Source of the DNA: Aeromicrobium tamlense
Lineage (GTDB): Bacteria; Actinomycetota; Actinomycetes; Propionibacteriales; Nocardioidaceae
Reading direction: 5' to 3'
Assembly (NCBI RefSeq): GCF_013408555.1
Contig: NZ_JACBZN010000001.1
Coordinates: forward strand, 2,108,001-2,172,000
DNA length: 64,000 nt
Shown here one piece after another: positions 7,609 through 15,893 of this stretch (its first letter is position 1; each line of letters begins with the position of its first letter). The notes below the pieces were generated by a model, which worked only from the letters and a program-made list of their open reading frames with translations, was not told where the DNA came from and did no database searches. Both the position numbers and the translations under genes were made by a program.

Positions 7609-7657
7609 ACGGCCACCGTATGCGAGATCGGCGGACCGGGCCGGGCGATGGGAGGCG

Positions 7658-7701
7658 GAGTCGGTACCCCCGCCTCGGGGGGTGTGCAGGGGCACCGACT
7701 C
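7658..7701. terminator. GC-rich hairpin between a TetR gene and fdhD (module copy 1)
   Basis: The arms GAGTCGGTACCCC and GGGGCACCGACTC pair across 44 bp. A closely similar hairpin lies at 15068-15112 in the equivalent place after the paralogous TetR gene. It may end tetR transcripts or act as a control element for fdhD; there is no T-run. Confidence 0.6.
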
Positions 7702-7788
7702 ACGACAGACACAGCTCGGCTGGGGGACCGAGCGCTTTCCCTCCCGGCAGTCTCGAGTGGTGTGAGCTCGAGGCGCCGCGAGCCAAAA

Positions 7789-7803
7789 GTACCGGACTGG
7801 TAC
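7789..7803. promoter_or_regulatory. GTACC-N5-GGTAC palindrome, possible operator (copy 1)
   Basis: A perfect 15-bp inverted repeat preceded by AAAA, 74 bp after the tetR stop and about 180 bp upstream of fdhD. A matching 15-bp box with the same AAAA flank lies at 15163-15177 upstream of icmF. It is a candidate binding site for the paralogous TetR proteins. Confidence 0.5.
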
Positions 7804-7876
7804 ACAAGCGCGCCCGAAAATCGCACAATTTGTTCAGTCCCTGCACAAAGCCTGCAACGGCGGGGGAAAACGCACC

Positions 7877-8545
7877 TCAGACCGGGCGGAGGAGGCTGGT
7901 CTGGATCGAGACGACCGGCGGCACGATCGCGGACAGCCGCAGCCGGCGACGCGGTGGGGTCCGCCGGATCTCGCGGGCGACGAGCTCCTCCGCGGCGCCG
8001 ATGGCGCCGACGACCTCGAGCTCGGTGGGCACGCGCACGTCGGCACCGGACGCCGCGGCGAGCTCGGCCACGCGCGCGAGGCTGCGGGCGTGGCGTTCCA
8101 CCACGACATCGCGCTGGCGGCGCAAACGCTCCCCCGCGGCGTGGATCTCCACGACGAAGCTGCGCGCGAACGTCGGTCGCGCCTCGAGGCAGGCCGCGAG
8201 GCCCCGCACGCCGAGCTCGATCCGCTGCTCCCAGGCCGCGTCGTCGAGGGTCACGCCCTGGTCGCGGATGAACTGGACCAGCTGCTCGCTGATGGTCTCG
8301 TGGGCCGCGGCGAAGGCCTCCTCCTTGTCGGAGAAGCACCGGTAGAAGGTCGTGCGCGAGACGCGCGCCCGTCGGGTGATGCCCGTGACGGTGGCGCCGG
8401 CGAACCCCGCGTGCGCCACCTCGTCGGACACGGCCTGCAGGATGCGGCCGCGCTGCGAGGCGGCGACCTCGGACTCGGGGAGGGCCGCGCGCCCCCGCGG
8501 GAGTTCGAGCCGCTCCGGCAGCAGGCTCAGGGCGTCTTCGGGCAC
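7877..8545 (-). CDS. TetR/AcrR-family regulator (paralogue of the one at 15.2 kb)
   Basis: A 222-residue TetR regulator. The helix-turn-helix spans about residues 25-70 (GATVTGITRRARVSRTTFYR, then CFSDKEEAFAAAH). The C-terminal ligand-binding half aligns along its length with the regulator at 15222-15893, including the AAGERL.RQR block, so the two are paralogues. The GTG at 8545 lies 7 nt after TAATGT, pointing to a leaderless start. It faces the ornithine cyclodeaminase-type gene across 172 bp and precedes fdhD in the same direction. The effector is unknown. Confidence 0.88.
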   Translation of the reverse strand: MPEDALSLLPERLELPRGRAALPESEVAASQRGRILQAVSDEVAHAGFAGATVTGITRRARVSRTTFYRCFSDKEEAFAAAHETISEQLVQFIRDQGVTLDDAAWEQRIELGVRGLAACLEARPTFARSFVVEIHAAGERLRRQRDVVVERHARSLARVAELAAASGADVRVPTELEVVGAIGAAEELVAREIRRTPPRRRLRLSAIVPPVVSIQTSLLRPV

Positions 8546-8681
8546 CCGGCACACATTATCCGCAGGAATCCCGGGGTGTCTCGGACTTTTCCCGCGACTG
8601 GACGCGGCCGACGACGCAGAAATGTTGCTCCGCAGGGCTTCGCACGCAACGTTTCCGGGCTGAGCACGCAAGAAATTTCCG

Positions 8682-8710
8682 TTGTTTGCACCCTGACCCC
8701 TGCGTAGCGT
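8682..8710 (+). promoter_or_regulatory. Promoter of the ornithine cyclodeaminase-type gene
   Basis: TTGTTT at 8682-8687 and TAGCGT at 8705-8710 are 17 bp apart. The -10 box ends 7 nt before the ATG, so transcription should begin at or beside the start codon. Confidence 0.55.
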
Positions 8711-8717
8711 TGACTTC

Positions 8718-9761
8718 ATGAGTTCCGTCCCCTTCCTCGACGTGGCCAACACCGTGCGCTGGGTCCGCTCGCGCGGCGCCGAGGCCGTCATCGCCGGCAT
8801 GACCGACGCCGTCGAGGCCGACTTCCGCCGCTGGCCGTCGTTCGACAAGACCCCGCGCGTGGCCGCGCACTCGTCCGAGGGCGTCATCGAGCTGATGCCC
8901 ACGAGCGACGGCGTCGCGTACGGCTTCAAGTACGTCAACGGGCACCCCTCGAACCCCTCGTACGGCCTCCAGACCGTCACCGCGTTCGGCGTCCTGGCCG
9001 AGGTCTCCTCCGGCTACCCGACGTTCGTGGCCGAGATGACCGTCCTGACGGCGCTGCGCACCGCCGCCACCTCGGCGATGGCGGCCCGCCACCTCGCCCG
9101 TCCGGACTCTCGCGTCATGGCGATGATCGGCACCGGCTCCCAGGCCGAGTTCCAGGCGCTCGGCATGCGTGCGGCGCTGGGCATCACGTCACTGCGCGTC
9201 TGGGACGTCGACCCCGCCGCGATGGAGAAGTTCGTCCGCAACGCCGAGCCGCTCGGCTTCGAGGTCCACGTCGCGTCCAGCGCGGCCGACGCCGTGCGCG
9301 GCGCCGACGTCATCACGACCTGCACCGCCGACAAGCAGCGCGCCCTCGTCCTCACCGACGACATGGTGGCGCCCGGCGTGCACGTCAACGCGATCGGCGG
9401 CGACTGCCCCGGCAAGACCGAGCTCGACCCGGCGATCCTGCACCGCGCGGACGTCTTCGTGGAGTTCGAGCCGCAGACCCGCATCGAGGGCGAGATCCAG
9501 GCCGTCGCGGCCGACCATCCCGTCACCGAGCTCTGGCAGGTCGTCACCGGGCAGGCGACGGGTCGCCGCGACGCCGACGCCGTCACGGTCTTCGACTCGG
9601 TGGGCTTCGCGGTGGAGGACTTCGCGGCGCTGCGGTACGCGCACGAGTCCGTCGCCGGCACCGACCTCGTGGGGTGGCTCGACCTCATCGCCGACCCCGC
9701 CGACCCGAAGGACCTGTTCGGCCTCGTCGCCGGCGCGGACGTCCTCTCGGCCGCCCACTGA
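8718..9761 (+). CDS. Ornithine cyclodeaminase / mu-crystallin family protein
   Basis: A 347-residue protein of the ornithine cyclodeaminase/mu-crystallin family, at the usual length. The Rossmann fingerprint appears as MIGTGSQAEFQALGM (about residues 135-149). The N-terminal dimer and substrate part contains the conserved KYVNGHPSNP block and MTVLTALRTAATSAM. True members convert ornithine to proline and ammonia with bound NAD; relatives act as imine or ketimine reductases or alanine dehydrogenases, so the substrate is not fixed. No RBS is seen and the message is probably leaderless. A terminator-like hairpin follows at 9779. Confidence 0.88.
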   Translation: MSSVPFLDVANTVRWVRSRGAEAVIAGMTDAVEADFRRWPSFDKTPRVAAHSSEGVIELMPTSDGVAYGFKYVNGHPSNPSYGLQTVTAFGVLAEVSSGYPTFVAEMTVLTALRTAATSAMAARHLARPDSRVMAMIGTGSQAEFQALGMRAALGITSLRVWDVDPAAMEKFVRNAEPLGFEVHVASSAADAVRGADVITTCTADKQRALVLTDDMVAPGVHVNAIGGDCPGKTELDPAILHRADVFVEFEPQTRIEGEIQAVAADHPVTELWQVVTGQATGRRDADAVTVFDSVGFAVEDFAALRYAHESVAGTDLVGWLDLIADPADPKDLFGLVAGADVLSAAH

Positions 9762-9778
9762 TCCACCGATCGCGAAGA

Positions 9779-9806
9779 AGTCCGGCGTCGCTCTTGACGC
9801 CGGACT
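9779..9806 (+). terminator. Hairpin terminator after the ornithine cyclodeaminase-type gene
   Basis: Perfect 11-bp arms AGTCCGGCGTC and GACGCCGGACT enclose a 6-nt loop, 18 bp after the stop. The -35 box of the next gene (TTGACG, 9794-9799) lies inside the hairpin. Confidence 0.7.
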
Positions 9807-9837
9807 CTCCTCGGCATAACGTGCAACCAAATGGTTG
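9794..9837 (+). promoter_or_regulatory. ArsR-gene promoter with operator palindrome over the start codon
   Basis: TTGACG at 9794-9799 is 17 bp from TAACGT at 9817-9822. The palindrome CAACCA-AA-TGGTTG (9824-9837) spans the transcription start and the ATG at 9831. Binding there would block a leaderless transcript, as expected for an autorepressed ArsR gene. Confidence 0.5.
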
Positions 9838-10187
9838 TAGATACTCAGAACGAGCTGACCGACGCCGAGGTCGACCGCATCTTCCACGCCCTCGCCGACT
9901 CCACTCGACGCGACATCGTCCGCCGCACCCTCGTGGGCGAGGCGTCGGTGTCCCGTCTGGCCGACTCGTACGACATGTCGTTCGCCGCCGTGCAGAAGCA
10001 CGTGGCCGTGCTGGAAGGGGCCGGACTGGTGACCAAGCACCGACAGGGCCGCGAACGACTGGTCCGGGGCAATCCGCACACGATTGCCCGGGCCCAACAG
10101 CTGCTCGACGAGTTCGAGCTCATCTGGCGCTCGCGCGTGGAGCGCCTCGACGCCCTCCTGGCCGAGGACGAACCCGATCCCTCCTGA
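9831..10187 (+). CDS. ArsR-family transcriptional regulator
   Basis: A 118-residue winged-helix protein. It shows the ArsR start block RIFHALADSTRRDIVRRTL, a recognition helix region SRLADSYDMSFAAVQKHVAVLE and a wing GLVTKHRQGRERLV. There are no metal-binding cysteines, so it belongs to the metal-free subgroup that is often paired with SRPBCC/AHSA1 proteins, and an AHSA1-type gene follows 11 bp downstream. The palindrome overlapping its start codon suggests autorepression. Confidence 0.9.
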   Translation: MVVDTQNELTDAEVDRIFHALADSTRRDIVRRTLVGEASVSRLADSYDMSFAAVQKHVAVLEGAGLVTKHRQGRERLVRGNPHTIARAQQLLDEFELIWRSRVERLDALLAEDEPDPS

Positions 10188-10198
10188 AAGGCACGACC

Positions 10199-11176
10199 AT
10201 GCCCATCACCTCCGTGTCCAAGGACACCGACGACCTCACGATGACCGTCGTCGCCGACTTCCCCGTGCCGGTGCGCCGGCTGTGGGACGCCTACGCCGAC
10301 CCCCGCCAGCTCGAGCGCTTCTGGGGGCCCGTCGAGTGGCCCGCGACGTTCAGCCGGCACGACATGACGCCGGGCGGAGAGTCGCACTACGTCATGACCG
10401 GCCCGGACGGCGACCAGAGCGCCGGCTATTGGAAGTTCCGCTCGGTCGACGAGGGGAAGGGCTTCGAGGTCGAGGACGGCTTCTGCACCGACCCGGGCGT
10501 GCCGAACCCCGACATGCCGTCCATGCGGATGACCTTCGCGTTCGAGGAGACCGGCGAGGGCTCCCGCGTCACGACCACGACGTGGTTCGCCTCCCTGAAG
10601 GACCTCGAGGAGCTCATCGCCCAGGGCATGGAGGAGGGCATGACCTCCGCCATGAGCCAGATGGACGCCGTCGTGGCCGACCTGAGCTCGTTCGCCGCCT
10701 CCGTGGGCACCGAGAGCCAGCTGCTCGACGACACCCACGTGCGGATCACCCGCATCATCCGCGGCACGGTCGAGCAGGTGTGGCGCGCCCACACCGAGCC
10801 CGAGCTGCTGCGGCGCTGGCAGCTCGGGCCCGAGGGCTGGACGATGCCGGTGTGCGAGGTCGCCACGAACGTCGGCGACACCTACCGCTACGAGTGGGAG
10901 CAGGAGGGCGGCGAGAACCGCTTCGGCTTCACCGGCGAGCTGCTCGAGGTGAGCCCGCCCGTCCGTTCGGTCACCACCGAGCGGATGATCGGCATGGAGG
11001 GCGAGGGCACGATCAACGAGCTGACCCTCACCCCCGTCGAGGAGGGCACGCTCATGTCGCTCTACGTCACCTACCCGAGCCGTGAGCTGCGTGACCAGAT
11101 CCTGGCGACGGGCATGACCGACGGCATGGAGACCAGCTACGCCCGGCTCGAGCGCGAGGTGCTCGCCCCGGCGTGA
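10199..11176 (+). CDS. Double SRPBCC (AHSA1-like) domain protein
   Basis: A 325-residue cytoplasmic protein made of two SRPBCC/AHSA1 domains in tandem, about residues 1-155 and 175-320. Each begins with the usual pattern: FPVPVRRLWDAYADPRQLERFW in the first, GTVEQVWRAHTEPELLRRW in the second. These domains form a hydrophobic pocket; most paired ArsR/AHSA1 systems have no known ligand. An AAAGGC ribosome-binding site lies before the ATG. It is co-transcribed with the ArsR gene, which probably represses both. The function is inferred from fold only. Confidence 0.85.
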   Translation: MPITSVSKDTDDLTMTVVADFPVPVRRLWDAYADPRQLERFWGPVEWPATFSRHDMTPGGESHYVMTGPDGDQSAGYWKFRSVDEGKGFEVEDGFCTDPGVPNPDMPSMRMTFAFEETGEGSRVTTTTWFASLKDLEELIAQGMEEGMTSAMSQMDAVVADLSSFAASVGTESQLLDDTHVRITRIIRGTVEQVWRAHTEPELLRRWQLGPEGWTMPVCEVATNVGDTYRYEWEQEGGENRFGFTGELLEVSPPVRSVTTERMIGMEGEGTINELTLTPVEEGTLMSLYVTYPSRELRDQILATGMTDGMETSYARLEREVLAPA

Positions 11177-11186
11177 GCCATCGCCT

Positions 11187-11222
11187 CATCGCAGCCGCAG
11201 GCTCACCACCGCGGCTGCGATG
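11187..11222 (+). terminator. Terminator hairpin after the SRPBCC gene
   Basis: Perfect 12-bp arms CATCGCAGCCGC and GCGGCTGCGATG lie 11 bp after the stop with a 12-nt loop. The remaining ~140 bp up to soxR contain no convincing gene. Confidence 0.75.
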
Positions 11223-11341
11223 AAGCGGTCACGCCCCTCGGGGCGGATGCGGCCCTCGACGAGGCGTGCGGGAACGGACAGGGACGGGCGGACCCGGCGG
11301 CGCCGGGTGGGCTTCGACTGGAGCATGGTCCTGATCGAACA

Positions 11342-11361
11342 ACCTCAACTAAGGTTCAGGT
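11342..11361 (+). promoter_or_regulatory. SoxR-box-like palindrome upstream of soxR
   Basis: A 20-bp imperfect palindrome with arms ACCTCAACTA and AGGTTCAGGT ends three bases before the soxR ATG. It keeps the CCTCAA half of the E. coli SoxR box. TAAGGT inside it could be the -10 box of a leaderless transcript. Confidence 0.6.
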
Positions 11362-11363
11362 CA

Positions 11364-11801
11364 ATGACTGTCCTCCTGACCCCGTCCCAGGTCGCCGAGC
11401 GAGCCGGCGTCGCGGTGTCCGCCCTGCACTTCTACGAGCGCGAGGGGCTCATCACGTCCACGCGGACGGCGGGCAACCAGCGCCGCTACACACGCGACGT
11501 GCTGCGGCGCATCGCGTTCATCCGCACGTCGCAGCGCGTCGGGATCTCCCTGGCCGAGATCCGCGAGGCGCTCGCGTCCCTGCCGACCGACCACGCCCCG
11601 TCCAAGGCCGACTGGTCGCGGCTCTCGCGGCGCTGGCGCCGTTCGCTGGACGAGCGGATCGCCCGGCTCGAGCGGCTGCGCGACGACCTCGACGGCTGCA
11701 TCGGCTGCGGCTGCCTGTCGCTCAGGACGTGCCGGCTGCGAAACCCCGACGACGCCCTCGCCTCCGACGGCGCCGGCCCTCGACTCCTCGACCCCGACTG
11801 A
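11364..11801 (+). CDS. soxR: SoxR, redox-sensing MerR-family regulator
   Basis: A 145-residue MerR-family protein. The DNA-binding domain starts TPSQVAERAGVAVSALHFYEREGL and continues to about residue 75; a dimerisation helix follows. Four cysteines at 112, 115, 117 and 123 give the exact CX2CXCX5C spacing that binds the [2Fe-2S] sensor in SoxR. Oxidation by redox-active compounds turns on target genes. In actinobacteria SoxR usually answers to redox-cycling metabolites rather than driving a soxS gene. The palindrome just upstream suggests autoregulation. It converges on icmF with a 14-bp gap. Confidence 0.93.
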   Translation: MTVLLTPSQVAERAGVAVSALHFYEREGLITSTRTAGNQRRYTRDVLRRIAFIRTSQRVGISLAEIREALASLPTDHAPSKADWSRLSRRWRRSLDERIARLERLRDDLDGCIGCGCLSLRTCRLRNPDDALASDGAGPRLLDPD

Positions 11802-11815
11802 CGCTCAGCCGGGGC

Positions 11816-14800
11816 TCAGACGTTGCGGCGGTACTGGCCGCCGACCTCGAAGAAGGCCTCGGTGACCTGCTGGAGCGAGCAGACCCGCGCGGCGTCCATC
11901 AGGACGGCGAAGACGTTCTCGTGGCTGGCGGCGGCCTCCTTGAGCCGTTCAAGGGCGGCCTCGGCCTCGCCGCGGTGCGCCTGCTGGAACGCGCGCAGGC
12001 GGCGCAGCTGCGACTCCTTCTCGCCCTCGGACGCCCGCGCGAGCGCGAGCTTCTGCGGCACCTCGTCGCCGTGCGGGTTCTTGAACGTGTTGACACCGAC
12101 GATCGGCAGCGAGCCGTCGTGCTTGCGGTGCTCGTAGAGCATCGACTCGTCCTGGATGCGCCCGCGCTGGTAGCCGGTCTCCATCGCGCCGAGCACGCCG
12201 CCACGCTCGCTGATGGCCTCGAACTCGCGCAGCACGGCCTCCTCGACGAGCTCGGTGAGCTCCTCGATGACGAAGGACCCCTGCAGCGGGTTCTCGTTGG
12301 CGGCCAGCCCCCACTCGCGGTTGATGATGAGCTGGATCGCGAGCGCCCGGCGCACCGACTCCTCCGACGGCGTCGTGACGGCCTCGTCGAAGGCGTTGGT
12401 GTGCAGGCTGTTGGCGTTGTCGTAGATCGCGATGAGCGCCTGCAGCGTGGTGCGGATGTCGTTGAAGTCCATCTCCTGCGCGTGCAGGGACCGGCCCGAT
12501 GTCTGCACGTGGTACTTCAGCTTCTGGCTGCGCTCCCCCGCGCCGTACTTCTCCTTCATCGCGATCGCCCAGATCCGGCGGGCGACCCGGCCGAGGACCG
12601 AGTACTCGGGGTCCATGCCGTTGCTGAAGAAGAAGGACAGGTTGGGGGCGAAGTCGTCGATCGCCATGCCGCGGGCGAGGTAGGACTCCACGTACGTGAA
12701 CCCGTTCGCGAGCGTGAACGCCAGCTGGCTGATGGGGTTCGCCCCGGCCTCGGCGATGTGATAGCCCGAGATCGACACGGAGTAGAAGTTCCGGACGCCG
12801 TGCTCGATGAACCACTCCTGGATGTCGGCCATCATGCGCAGGCTGAACTCGGTGGAGAACAGGCACGTGTTCTGGCCCTGGTCCTCCTTGAGGATGTCGG
12901 CCTGCACCGTGCCGCGCACCTGCCGCAGCGCCTCGGCGGCGTCGACGCCCTTCTCGGCGGCCTGGTCGATCACGGCGTTGAGGAAGAACGCCAGCACCGT
13001 GGGCGCCGGGCCGTTGATCGTCATCGACACCGAGGTCGACGGATCGAGAAGGTCGAAGCCGTCGTACAGGACCTTCATGTCGTCCAGGGTCGCGACGGAG
13101 ACGCCCGACGTGCCGACCTTGCCGTAGATGTCGGGGCGCAGGTCGGGGTCTCGGCCGTAGAGGGTCACCGAGTCGAAGGCCGTGGACAGCCGCGTGGCGG
13201 GCTGGCCCTCGCTGAGCAGCTTGAAGCGGCGGTTCGTGCGGAACGGGTCGCCCTCGCCGGCGAACATGCGGGCGGGGTCCTCGTTGTCGCGCTTGAAGGT
13301 GAACACGCCCGCCGTGAACGGGAAGAAGCCGGGCAGGTTCTCACGCCGCCAGAAGCGGACGAGGTCGCCGTGCGAGCGGTACCGCGGCAGGCTCACCCGG
13401 CGCAACCGGTTGCCCGAGAGCGTCTCGCGCACGAGCGAGAACCGCAGCTCACGGTCACGCACCCTCACGACCTGCTCGTCGCCGGAGTACGCCTCCACGA
13501 CGGCAGGCCAGGCGTCGAGGGACTCGCGCACCGGGGCCGGGAGCTCGTCCTGGGCGCGGCGCGCGGCCTCGGCCAGACCCGGTTCGTCGGGCAGCTCGGC
13601 CGCCGCCGCGGCGAGGTGCTGCGCCCGGTCGGCCGCGTCGGCCCAGCGCTCGGTCTCGTCGTGGAAGTCGCGCACGGTCTCGGCGATCTCCGCCAGGTAC
13701 CGCACCCGCTGGGGCGGCACGAGGTGGTGCTCGTCGCTGGAGTGCCGCACCGACACCTCCGGCAGGACGCCCGGCTCGATGCCCAGCACCGACCGCAGCT
13801 CCTGGTAGAGCGCCGTCACGCCGTCGTCGTTGAAGTGCGCCGCCGACGTGCCGAACACCGGCATGTCCGACGGCTGCTGCCCGAACGCCTCGCGGTTGCG
13901 CACCAGCTGGCGACCCACGTCGCGCAGCGCGTCCTTCGCGCCGCGGCGCTCGAACTTGTTGATCGCCACCACGTCGGCGAAGTCGAGCATGTCGATCTTC
14001 TCCAGCTGACTGGCGGCGCCGAACTCCGGCGTCATGACGTACAGCGAGGCGTCGACGTACGGCAGGATGCCGGCGTCGCCCTGGCCGATGCCGGGCGTCT
14101 CGACGATCACCAGGTCGTTGCCCGCCGCCTTCAGCACGGCGATGACGTCGGTGAGGTGGTCGGGCACCTCGTGGCTGCCGCGCGTCGCGAGCGACCGGAA
14201 CGACACCGGCCCGCCGATCGCGTTCATCCGGATGCGGTCGCCCAGCAGCGCGCCGCCGCCCTTGCGTCGCGTGGGGTCGATGGCCACGACCGCCACCCGC
14301 AGCTTGTCGCCGTGGTCGAGACGCAGCCGGCGCACCAGCTCGTCGGTCAGCGAGCTCTTGCCCGACCCGCCGGTGCCGGTGATGCCGAGGACGCGCGCGG
14401 TCGAGCGGCCGGCGCCGGTCGTGATCGCCGCGGTGAGGTCGGGACCGAGGCGCCCGGACTCGGCGGCTGTCAGGGCCCGCGCGACCGAGGCGCGGTCACC
14501 CGCCAGCACGGCGTCCGCCGCGGGCAGTCCCGCCTCGACGAGGTCGACGTCGCAGGCCTCGACGAGGGTGTTGATCATCGCCGCCAGGCCGAGCCGCTGG
14601 CCGTCCTGCGGGCTGAAGATCGTCACGCCGGCGCTGCGCAGGCGGGCGATCTCGTCCGGCACGATGACGCCGCCGCCCCCGCCGAAGACCCGCACGTGGC
14701 GGGCGCCGCGCTCGGCCAGCAGCTGCACGAGGTACTCGAAGTACTCCACGTGACCGCCCTGGTAGGAGCTCACGGCGACGCCCTGGACGTCCTCCTCCAC

Positions 14801-14962
14801 GGCGGCGTCCACGATCTCGGCGACCGAGCGGTTGTGACCGAGGTGGATCACCTCGGCGCCCTGCGACTGCAGGATCCGTCGCATGATGTTGATGCTCGCG
14901 TCGTGCCCGTCGAACAGGCTCGAGGCGGTGACGAAACGCACTGGATTCACGGGGACGTGCAT
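11816..14962 (-). CDS. icmF: IcmF, fused isobutyryl-CoA mutase with its G-protein chaperone
   Basis: A 1048-residue fusion. The B12-binding domain (about 1-135) has the base-off histidine in DGHDASIN (His20). The MeaI-like GTPase chaperone follows, with P-loop GITGTGGSGKSS at 193-204. The C-terminal acyl-CoA mutase barrel occupies about 520-1048. IcmF interconverts isobutyryl-CoA and n-butyryl-CoA (some forms prefer isovaleryl/pivalyl-CoA), and the GTPase domain loads and protects the cofactor. A GAGG site precedes the ATG. The promoter carries two 14-bp palindromes (14980-15014), so tight acyl-CoA-responsive repression is likely. Confidence 0.93.
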   Translation of the reverse strand: MHVPVNPVRFVTASSLFDGHDASINIMRRILQSQGAEVIHLGHNRSVAEIVDAAVEEDVQGVAVSSYQGGHVEYFEYLVQLLAERGARHVRVFGGGGGVIVPDEIARLRSAGVTIFSPQDGQRLGLAAMINTLVEACDVDLVEAGLPAADAVLAGDRASVARALTAAESGRLGPDLTAAITTGAGRSTARVLGITGTGGSGKSSLTDELVRRLRLDHGDKLRVAVVAIDPTRRKGGGALLGDRIRMNAIGGPVSFRSLATRGSHEVPDHLTDVIAVLKAAGNDLVIVETPGIGQGDAGILPYVDASLYVMTPEFGAASQLEKIDMLDFADVVAINKFERRGAKDALRDVGRQLVRNREAFGQQPSDMPVFGTSAAHFNDDGVTALYQELRSVLGIEPGVLPEVSVRHSSDEHHLVPPQRVRYLAEIAETVRDFHDETERWADAADRAQHLAAAAAELPDEPGLAEAARRAQDELPAPVRESLDAWPAVVEAYSGDEQVVRVRDRELRFSLVRETLSGNRLRRVSLPRYRSHGDLVRFWRRENLPGFFPFTAGVFTFKRDNEDPARMFAGEGDPFRTNRRFKLLSEGQPATRLSTAFDSVTLYGRDPDLRPDIYGKVGTSGVSVATLDDMKVLYDGFDLLDPSTSVSMTINGPAPTVLAFFLNAVIDQAAEKGVDAAEALRQVRGTVQADILKEDQGQNTCLFSTEFSLRMMADIQEWFIEHGVRNFYSVSISGYHIAEAGANPISQLAFTLANGFTYVESYLARGMAIDDFAPNLSFFFSNGMDPEYSVLGRVARRIWAIAMKEKYGAGERSQKLKYHVQTSGRSLHAQEMDFNDIRTTLQALIAIYDNANSLHTNAFDEAVTTPSEESVRRALAIQLIINREWGLAANENPLQGSFVIEELTELVEEAVLREFEAISERGGVLGAMETGYQRGRIQDESMLYEHRKHDGSLPIVGVNTFKNPHGDEVPQKLALARASEGEKESQLRRLRAFQQAHRGEAEAALERLKEAAASHENVFAVLMDAARVCSLQQVTEAFFEVGGQYRRNV

Positions 14963-14979
14963 GGCGACCTCATCAATTA

Positions 14980-15014
14980 CTAGGATGTCCTAGCAATATA
15001 CTCGGACGTCCGAG
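14980..15014 (-). promoter_or_regulatory. Tandem 14-bp palindromic operators in the icmF promoter
   Basis: CTAGGATGTCCTAG (14980-14993) and CTCGGACGTCCGAG (15001-15014) have centres 21 bp apart, two helical turns. Between them the minus strand reads TATATT, a good -10, so the two sites flank it. The proximal palindrome starts 18 bp from the icmF ATG. The layout is typical of a repressor binding cooperatively on one DNA face. Confidence 0.7.
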
Positions 15015-15067
15015 CATTGACCATGGGTCAGCGCCGCGCGATGCGGTGAATGGTGAAGGAGAGGACG

Positions 15068-15112
15068 AGGTCAGTGCCCCCGCGATCGGGGGGTGAGCGG
15101 GGGCACCGACCT
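15068..15112. terminator. GC-rich hairpin between a TetR gene and icmF (module copy 2)
   Basis: The arms AGGTCAGTGCCCCCGC and GCGGGGGCACCGACCT pair across 45 bp. It is closely similar to the hairpin at 7658-7701, which sits in the same place after the other TetR paralogue. Confidence 0.6.
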
Positions 15113-15162
15113 GTCGGACGGGGTTCGGTCGGGGGAGACGAACCACACCGTCATGGGCAAAA

Positions 15163-15177
15163 GTACACCGCGGGTAC
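15163..15177. promoter_or_regulatory. GTAC-N7-GTAC box, possible operator (copy 2)
   Basis: A 15-bp imperfect palindrome reading GTACACCGCGGGTAC, preceded by AAAA, 45 bp after the tetR stop. It matches the box at 7789-7803 in length, ends and flank. Confidence 0.45.
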
Positions 15178-15221
15178 AACTGTCCCGCCACCACCACGAG
15201 CGTGTCGGGACGTGGCCTGCG

Positions 15222-15893
15222 TCACGGTCGGTGCATGACGGCCGTGACGATCTCCCGGATCGGCGGGGCGACGGCGGCGAGGTCGAGGTCCTCGTCGTGT
15301 CGCTGGCTGCGCACCCGCCGCGCGACGAGCTCGTCGAACGCGCCGATCAGGGCGCGGAGGACGTCGTGCTCGGGCAGCCGGATCGTGGGGTCGTCGGCCG
15401 ACGACACCTTCGCCAGCTCGTGCAGGATCTGCACGTGCCGTTCGAGCATCTCCTCGCGCTGGCGTGCCAGCCGCTCCCCCGCCGCGAGGATCTCGACGAA
15501 GAAGCAGACGGTGAACGACCGCGCGGTCTCCAGCACGTGGAGGTAGCTGGCGAGCACCGTGGCGATGCGCTCGTCGAACTCGAGGTCGGGCCGGGTGAGC
15601 GCCGGCTCCCACACCCGCGTGAGGGCCAGGTCGCTGGCGTGCCAGTGCGCGGCGGCGAAGGCCTCCTCCTTGTCGGCGAAGGCGTCGTAGAACGAGGAGC
15701 GCGAGACGTGGGCCCGCTTCGTGATCGCGGCGACGGTGGCGGCGGCGTAGCCCGACTCGGCGACCTCGTCGAGCGCGGCCTGCATGATGCGGCCCCGGCG
15801 GGAGGCCTCCACGTCGGACTTCGACAGGGCCGATCGGCCGCGGGGCAGGTCGAGGCGATCGGGCAGCAGGCTGAGCAGACCGTCGTCCTCCAT
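15222..15893 (-). CDS. TetR/AcrR-family regulator (paralogue of the one at 7.9 kb)
   Basis: A 223-residue TetR regulator. The N-terminus shares the pattern LSLLP.RL.LPRGR with the regulator at 7877-8545, and the helix-turn-helix (AATVAAITKRAHVSRSSFYD, then AFADKEEAFAAAH) is nearly the same. The C-terminal halves also align. TATCCT lies 6 nt before the ATG, suggesting a leaderless start. It is 259 bp upstream of icmF in the same direction and could control it, through either the GTAC box or the twin palindromes. The ligand is unknown; an acyl-CoA is a reasonable guess. Confidence 0.88.
   Translation of the reverse strand: MEDDGLLSLLPDRLDLPRGRSALSKSDVEASRRGRIMQAALDEVAESGYAAATVAAITKRAHVSRSSFYDAFADKEEAFAAAHWHASDLALTRVWEPALTRPDLEFDERIATVLASYLHVLETARSFTVCFFVEILAAGERLARQREEMLERHVQILHELAKVSSADDPTIRLPEHDVLRALIGAFDELVARRVRSQRHDEDLDLAAVAPPIREIVTAVMHRP

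Follow-up and report, generated by a model that had tools for sequence, protein, structure and literature searches.

A duplicated TetR unit with a GTAC box and a putative 6C-like small RNA in Aeromicrobium tamlense

Two units of one layout lie on the minus strand of a 64,000-nucleotide stretch of the Aeromicrobium tamlense genome (assembly GCF_013408555.1, contig NZ_JACBZN010000001.1, positions 2,108,001 to 2,172,000), hereafter the window, in which all coordinates are counted. In each, a TetR gene is followed by a spacer, a 21-base-pair (bp) box, structured DNA that we propose to encode a small RNA, and another gene. TetR1 (7877 to 8545, minus strand; 222 residues from a GTG start chosen by us, with an LPRGR N-terminal arm) and TetR2 (15222 to 15893, minus strand; 223 residues) matched the Pfam DNA-binding domain TetR_N at 29.7 and 39.8 bits, respectively (cutoff, 24 bits), and the structure model of TetR1 was all-helical. 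The two proteins were 45% identical, and TetR1 of this genome (G000, 3.37 megabases [Mb]) was 41 to 47% identical to the five TetR2 proteins found in the genus. Stop codon and box are separated by 72 nucleotides (nt) in unit 1 and 43 nt in unit 2, the GTAC-N7-GTAC core of the box lies at 7789 to 7803 and 15163 to 15177, and the genes behind the units are fdhD (unit 1) and icmF (unit 2), both supported by Pfam. The original prediction of two paralogous TetR genes, each with the same GTAC box and a C-rich hairpin, was confirmed by the TetR_N matches, the protein identity and the box counts given below. The pairing of hairpin and box was present at both units, but the unit is larger than had been described, with one (unit 2) or two (unit 1) further hairpins between the box and the last hairpin.

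Proposed small RNA 1 (7656 to 7783, minus strand) has three hairpins, of which the last two have C-rich loops, and its 5' end is placed near 7779; its terminal hairpin (7658 to 7701, minus strand) has a CCCCCC loop and, from its fold, is a probable terminator. Proposed small RNA 2 (15066 to 15152, minus strand) is 6C-like, with two hairpins with C-rich loops, the last at about 15068 to 15112. The unit-1 box (TGTACCAGTCCGGTACTTTTG, 7784 to 7804, read 7804 to 7784 on the minus strand) is a candidate TetR operator that overlaps a putative promoter of the small RNA (TACTTT, 7791 to 7786); the same dual role is proposed for the unit-2 box (TGTACCCGCGGTGTACTTTTG, 15158 to 15178, read 15178 to 15158 on the minus strand; TACTTT, 15165 to 15160).

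The box was specific to these loci. AAAAGTACN7GTACA with at most two mismatches occurred twice in the window versus 0.01 times expected, and AAAGTACN7GTACA with at most one mismatch occurred twice in the whole 3.37-Mb genome (reversed control pattern, once). Among 341 genomes of the family, the exact sequence TGTACN7GTACTTTT was found at nine sites in five genomes, all in the genus of the window (two sites each in G000, G006, G042 and G045, one in G018), and every site lay beside one of these TetR genes; the reversed pattern was found in none of the 341. The hairpin arm alone (GGGGCACCGAC, one mismatch) occurred nine times in the window versus 6.3 expected, a count reached by 22 of 100 shuffles. 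As the arm is thus not rarer than chance, weight rests on the box, the fold and the conservation.

We searched 49 genomes of the genus with a profile of the ten TetR proteins. Orthologues of both were found in exactly five genomes, that of the window included (369 to 391 bits), and ten others gave distant TetR matches only (E ≤ 1e-12; best, 120 bits). Since boxes and TetR genes occur in exactly the same five genomes, they have been co-retained. The arrangement of TetR, hairpin and GTAC box that had been suggested for a search of relatives was accordingly present in five congeners, with the boxes kept beside the TetR orthologues, one of them in degenerate form. In a 27-row TetR tree, TetR1 and TetR2 formed separate clades in which the species branched in the same order (a single fork among the TetR1 sequences was weak, 82/48), which places the duplication before the split of the five species. 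Since that duplication, the protein has stayed with its box and its RNA.

TetR, box and hairpins persist in the five genomes although the gene behind the unit changes. Behind unit 1 lies fdhD in G000 and G006 (Pfam) and in G045 (same start sequence and length); in G018 and G042 the place is taken by an MFS gene in convergent orientation (Pfam; MFS_1 in G018). Behind unit 2, icmF was identified by Pfam in G000 and G018 and by eye in G042; G006 and G045 have a convergent MerR gene there, with no icmF between (Pfam). The downstream gene is thus convergent in 4 of 10 units. Because the unit is kept while the gene behind it varies, the unit is probably not a control site of unrelated downstream genes. 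This bears on the original suggestion that fdhD and icmF may be linked to related signals through the box as their common operator, for which the presence of both genes downstream in the window had spoken. We rejected that proposal, to which we give hardly any credence, as contradicted by synteny: convergent MFS or MerR genes take the place of fdhD and icmF in relatives, a strong hairpin stands between box and gene, and icmF has palindromes of its own that a congener without TetR2 or box retains. The same convergent genes (MerR in G006 and G045, MFS in G018 and G042) argue against the hairpins acting in cis on the downstream gene, as an attenuator or a riboswitch-like leader, since the structure is kept with a gene pointing toward it. 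A leader would agree with the structured, conserved RNA in front of fdhD and icmF and with the Rfam classification of 6C as Cis-reg; we regard it as very improbable.

The palindromes in question (CTAGGATGTCCTAG and CTCGGACGTCCGAG, 14980 to 15014) lie upstream of icmF and outside the module, and they are probably the operator of a separate, different icmF regulator. One palindrome of this type was found in G018, one in G042 and two related ones in G041. An sbcC match (E ≤ 1e-20) was present in 18 of the 49 genus genomes, and TetR2 lay behind sbcC in 5 of these 18. In G041 (locus L123), one of the other 13, icmF begins 71 bp past sbcC; the locus has the two palindromes and no box, and, by the profile search, the genome has no TetR2. 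The remaining 12 carry other sequence behind sbcC. That G041 keeps icmF and palindromes without TetR2 or box indicates that icmF has its own control region. The TetR2 unit was gained or lost as one block.

Conservation was concentrated between the box and the last hairpin. In four distant genome pairs, identity over this block was 82 to 87% for unit 1 and 64 to 78% for unit 2, whereas identity was at shuffle level (0.44 to 0.56) between stop codon and box and in the 45 nt that follow the block, and third codon positions of the TetR genes reached 0.56 to 0.68; in two further, close pairs identity was higher everywhere. Closed reading frames within the RNA block were at most 28 residues long and differed between species. 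Folding z scores of −3.7 to −6.4 were obtained for the 6 of the 10 RNAs that were folded, with no shuffle as good (window RNA 1, −3.9; RNA 2, −5.7). A covariance model built from the five unit-2 RNAs only (the unit-2 model) recovered all five unit-1 RNAs (32 to 43 bits; E, 4e-6 to 5e-4), including unit 1 of the window with 40.1 bits over 7739 to 7656. Run over the 341 family genomes (E ≤ 0.01), the model detected 9 of the 10 units, the exception being unit 1 of G018, and in a further set of 51 loci, made up of 18 sbcC loci, relatives of TetR and other loci, it scored above 17 bits, on either strand, only at the five TetR2 loci. In a ten-row model-fitted alignment, which leans to the model and in which unit 1 fits the model's first helices imperfectly, 94.4% of cells were paired and 17 of 27 pairs had changed on both sides; neither value was reached by any of 500 shuffles. 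The number of further pair types was reached by 11 of 500 shuffles, and slid controls paired at 36 to 51%. Joint retention in 5 of the 49 genus genomes and recovery of the unit-1 RNAs by the unit-2 model support two earlier proposals, that protein and noncoding parts were duplicated together and that the units are not plain terminators. The unit-1 RNA is a longer relative.

Each of the ten units has a hexamer, TACTTT (TAGTTT in one case), that overlaps the box in its 3' half. At all five unit-2 loci a TANNNT hexamer, reading away from TetR, precedes the first stem by 6 to 7 nt, a distance that would suit a transcription start; in unit 1, a CTCGAG or TTCGAG stem starts 11 to 15 nt behind the hexamer. 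These features bear on another explanation, in which the hairpins serve the TetR messenger RNA (mRNA) as a conserved terminator and stabilizing 3' untranslated region, any small RNA would be cut from that mRNA, and the box is minor or unrelated. In all ten units the hairpins lie on the TetR strand immediately downstream of the gene, the last hairpin is strong enough for termination, and the convergent genes behind 4 of the 10 would suit a bidirectional terminator. However, the 30 to 76 nt between stop codon and box are not conserved in distant species whereas box and RNA are, the hexamer in the unit-2 box resembles a promoter element and is suitably spaced, and two or three covarying hairpins are not needed for a terminator. 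We consider such a 3' untranslated region unlikely.

The likeness of the unit RNAs to 6C RNAs was then weighed. An Rfam search at the gathering cutoff gave no match in the window. Scanned permissively, unit-2 loci matched the Rfam 6C model (RF01066) with 40.7 bits (G018), 33.2 bits (G006) and 24.4 bits at an E value of 9.9 (G000), and model positions 1 to 75 of 75 were aligned in the expected position and orientation at all three loci scanned (L054 and L055 were left out). Full-length alignment, fold and covariation agree on two hairpins in succession, arranged as in 6C. In the G018 genome, no 6C match other than unit 2 reached E ≤ 0.001, and unit 1 of G018 matched with 27.5 bits on its last hairpin. 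Among 39 relatives scanned, the sole other match at E ≤ 0.001 was in G009 (L043), which we judged false, being a palindromic hairpin at another place. In 198 genomes of the phylum, 6C matches were found in 16, above the cutoff in 8. In unit 2, the second loop has six C in all five genomes, and the first has six in two and five in three; the accessible part of PMC8388888 gives at least six C per stem-loop as the mark of 6C. The unit RNAs resemble 6C, B11 and scr3558 in length and in having a pair of neighboring hairpins, both with C-rich loops, of which the second is a terminator; B11 of mycobacteria has 93 nt and a C-rich loop in its terminator (PMC12395582, accessible part). They differ in location, lying beside TetR genes, while the available portions of two reports place B11 at Rv3660-Rv3661 (PMC12395582) and Streptomyces scr3558 beside SCO3558 (PMC8539372). 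They differ also in promoter: B11 has a housekeeping-type TATAGT −10 motif (PMC12395582, accessible part), and of the 6C loci from the phylum, the three examined in the correct orientation (L058, L060 and L061) have a TATAGT −10, with no GTAC box immediately ahead of the RNA. A TetR-6C pairing was not described in the accessible parts of PMC10470900, PMC12395582, PMC4046766, PMC6789036, PMC8539372, PMC8388888 and PMC7382501, a literature search that was not exhaustive, nor did the portions available of the literature on 6C RNAs mention a GTAC box or a duplicated pair. Judged by these features, the unit RNA would work like a 6C RNA; as to identity beyond that, it is best termed 6C-like.

Sites resembling the box were also found beside distant TetR relatives. 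An Amycolatopsis relative (54% identity) carries GAACN7GTACTTTTG at 57 bp upstream of its likely start codon, where about 2e-6 such sites would be expected per 150 bp, and the TetR fragment groups with TetR1 in the tree (support, 87/86). Another distant relative, L089, carries GTACN6GTACTTTTG upstream and was the only one of 29 other TetR loci scanned whole to contain GTACTTTTG. Both sites are independent hints that this type of TetR uses such sequences, and the box is a plausible TetR site. The Amycolatopsis site, a near-complete box, lies at L056:4510-4529, and the TetR1 relative behind it is frame-broken. In two genomes of the same class, GTAC-N7-GTACTTTTG stands just upstream of a FasR-like TetR gene (L111:1501-1520 and L112:1501-1520), possibly by chance; these boxes were left out of the evidence because the box occurs at chance level outside the genus.

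By sequence profile, the nearest solved structure was FadR, and by fold the nearest were FadR and FasR, at a template modeling score of about 0.4 to 0.5 to the best and with a mean predicted local distance difference score (pLDDT) of 74.5 for the TetR1 model. As differences from the FadR/FasR-type regulators, which govern fatty-acid metabolism, neither TetR1 nor TetR2 has a fatty-acid gene directly beside it, and the DNA in the FasR crystal, as given in the accessible part of PMC7382501, lacks GTAC-N7-GTAC. FasR is an activator according to the same portion of that paper, which would fit TetR activating rather than repressing the small RNA. The box, however, overlaps the hexamer, which would be an unfavorable position for an activator, and the vast majority of TetR regulators repress (PMC7382501, accessible part); we hold activation to be quite improbable.

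Taken as a whole, it appears rather probable that each unit consists of a TetR regulator gating an adjacent 6C-like, C-loop small RNA, and that the unit was duplicated before the five species split. Several results weigh against this. With respect to the RNA, all unit scores were below the Rfam 6C gathering cutoff (47 bits; best, 40.7), loop 1 of unit 2 in the window has five C and not six, no T-run follows the terminal hairpin of either unit in the window, and the unit-2 model scored marginally on canonical 6C genes (16.9 to 22.9 bits in 4 of 8 loci tried). At the largest distances, identity of the unit-2 RNA was 0.64 to 0.66, versus 0.58 to 0.63 at third codon positions and 0.53 to 0.54 in shuffled sequence; being modestly above background, it leaves the case there to structure. 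The unit-2 model also scored 17 to 29 bits on the opposite strand of these hairpins, because the last hairpin is palindromic, and it matched two places in G166 (39.0 and 36.5 bits) besides one in G007 (34.3 bits), with E values of 0.0007 to 0.004 per genome, where about one such chance match is expected over 341 genomes. Given the opposite-strand and G166 matches, the unit-1 scores (32 to 43 bits) need position as much as score. With respect to the operator and promoter, the unit-1 box of G018 is degenerate (a GTAG variant beside TetR1) while its RNA is still conserved, no clear −35 box was seen upstream of the hexamer, and in 20 more distant TetR loci a comparable site was found in L089 only. 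Outside the genus, the box was at or below chance, with 5 matches in 394 class genomes versus 16 for the reversed pattern (our sum).

The G166 and G007 matches were rejected as further units, as there was no GTAC box in the preceding 100 nt and no TetR by eye (L140 and L141; the other G166 match is not among these loci). The G007 match (L141:1501-1580, 34.3 bits) has two hairpins, a CACCCCCCGAG loop and a T-run behind, and its sequence is possibly that of another 6C-like RNA. Elsewhere in the window, an ArsR-type regulator and then a protein with AHSA1 and Polyketide_cyc2 domains (Pfam) are encoded at 9831-11176, and the MerR-family gene (Pfam; cysteine-rich C-terminal end by eye), which in G006 and G045 stands behind unit 2, lies at 11364-11801, beyond the end of icmF.

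In the mechanism that we propose, each unit would be a one-component regulator with its own small RNA gene, and the GTAC-N7-GTACTTTTG box would serve as TetR operator and core promoter at once. The RNA would be about 85 to 125 nt long, carry stable hairpins with loops of five or six C, and end in a terminator hairpin (CCCCCC loop in the window). TetR bound to the box would cover the hexamer and, as the most likely sign of regulation, block transcription until a ligand removes it; the modeled fold gives a weak hint of an acyl-CoA-type ligand. By analogy with 6C and B11, the C-rich loops of the freed RNA might pair with mRNAs from elsewhere at ribosome-binding regions rich in G. Duplication would have yielded two related switches. 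We advance tentatively, as a possibility short of a firm expectation, the more specific model in which TetR is a ligand-sensing repressor dedicated to the promoter of the neighboring C-loop small RNA, perhaps its sole operator in the genome. This one-component relay from protein to RNA would have been duplicated, giving two switches in parallel whose operators are nearly identical.

These results correct the tempting view of the box as an operator of fdhD and icmF, and the unit of two genes and a 21-bp site is directly testable. RNAs of the 6C/B11 type are conserved in actinobacteria; a TetR gate, if true, would put this type of RNA under a specific chemical signal, and a 6C-like RNA could then be duplicated as a cassette with its own TetR gate.

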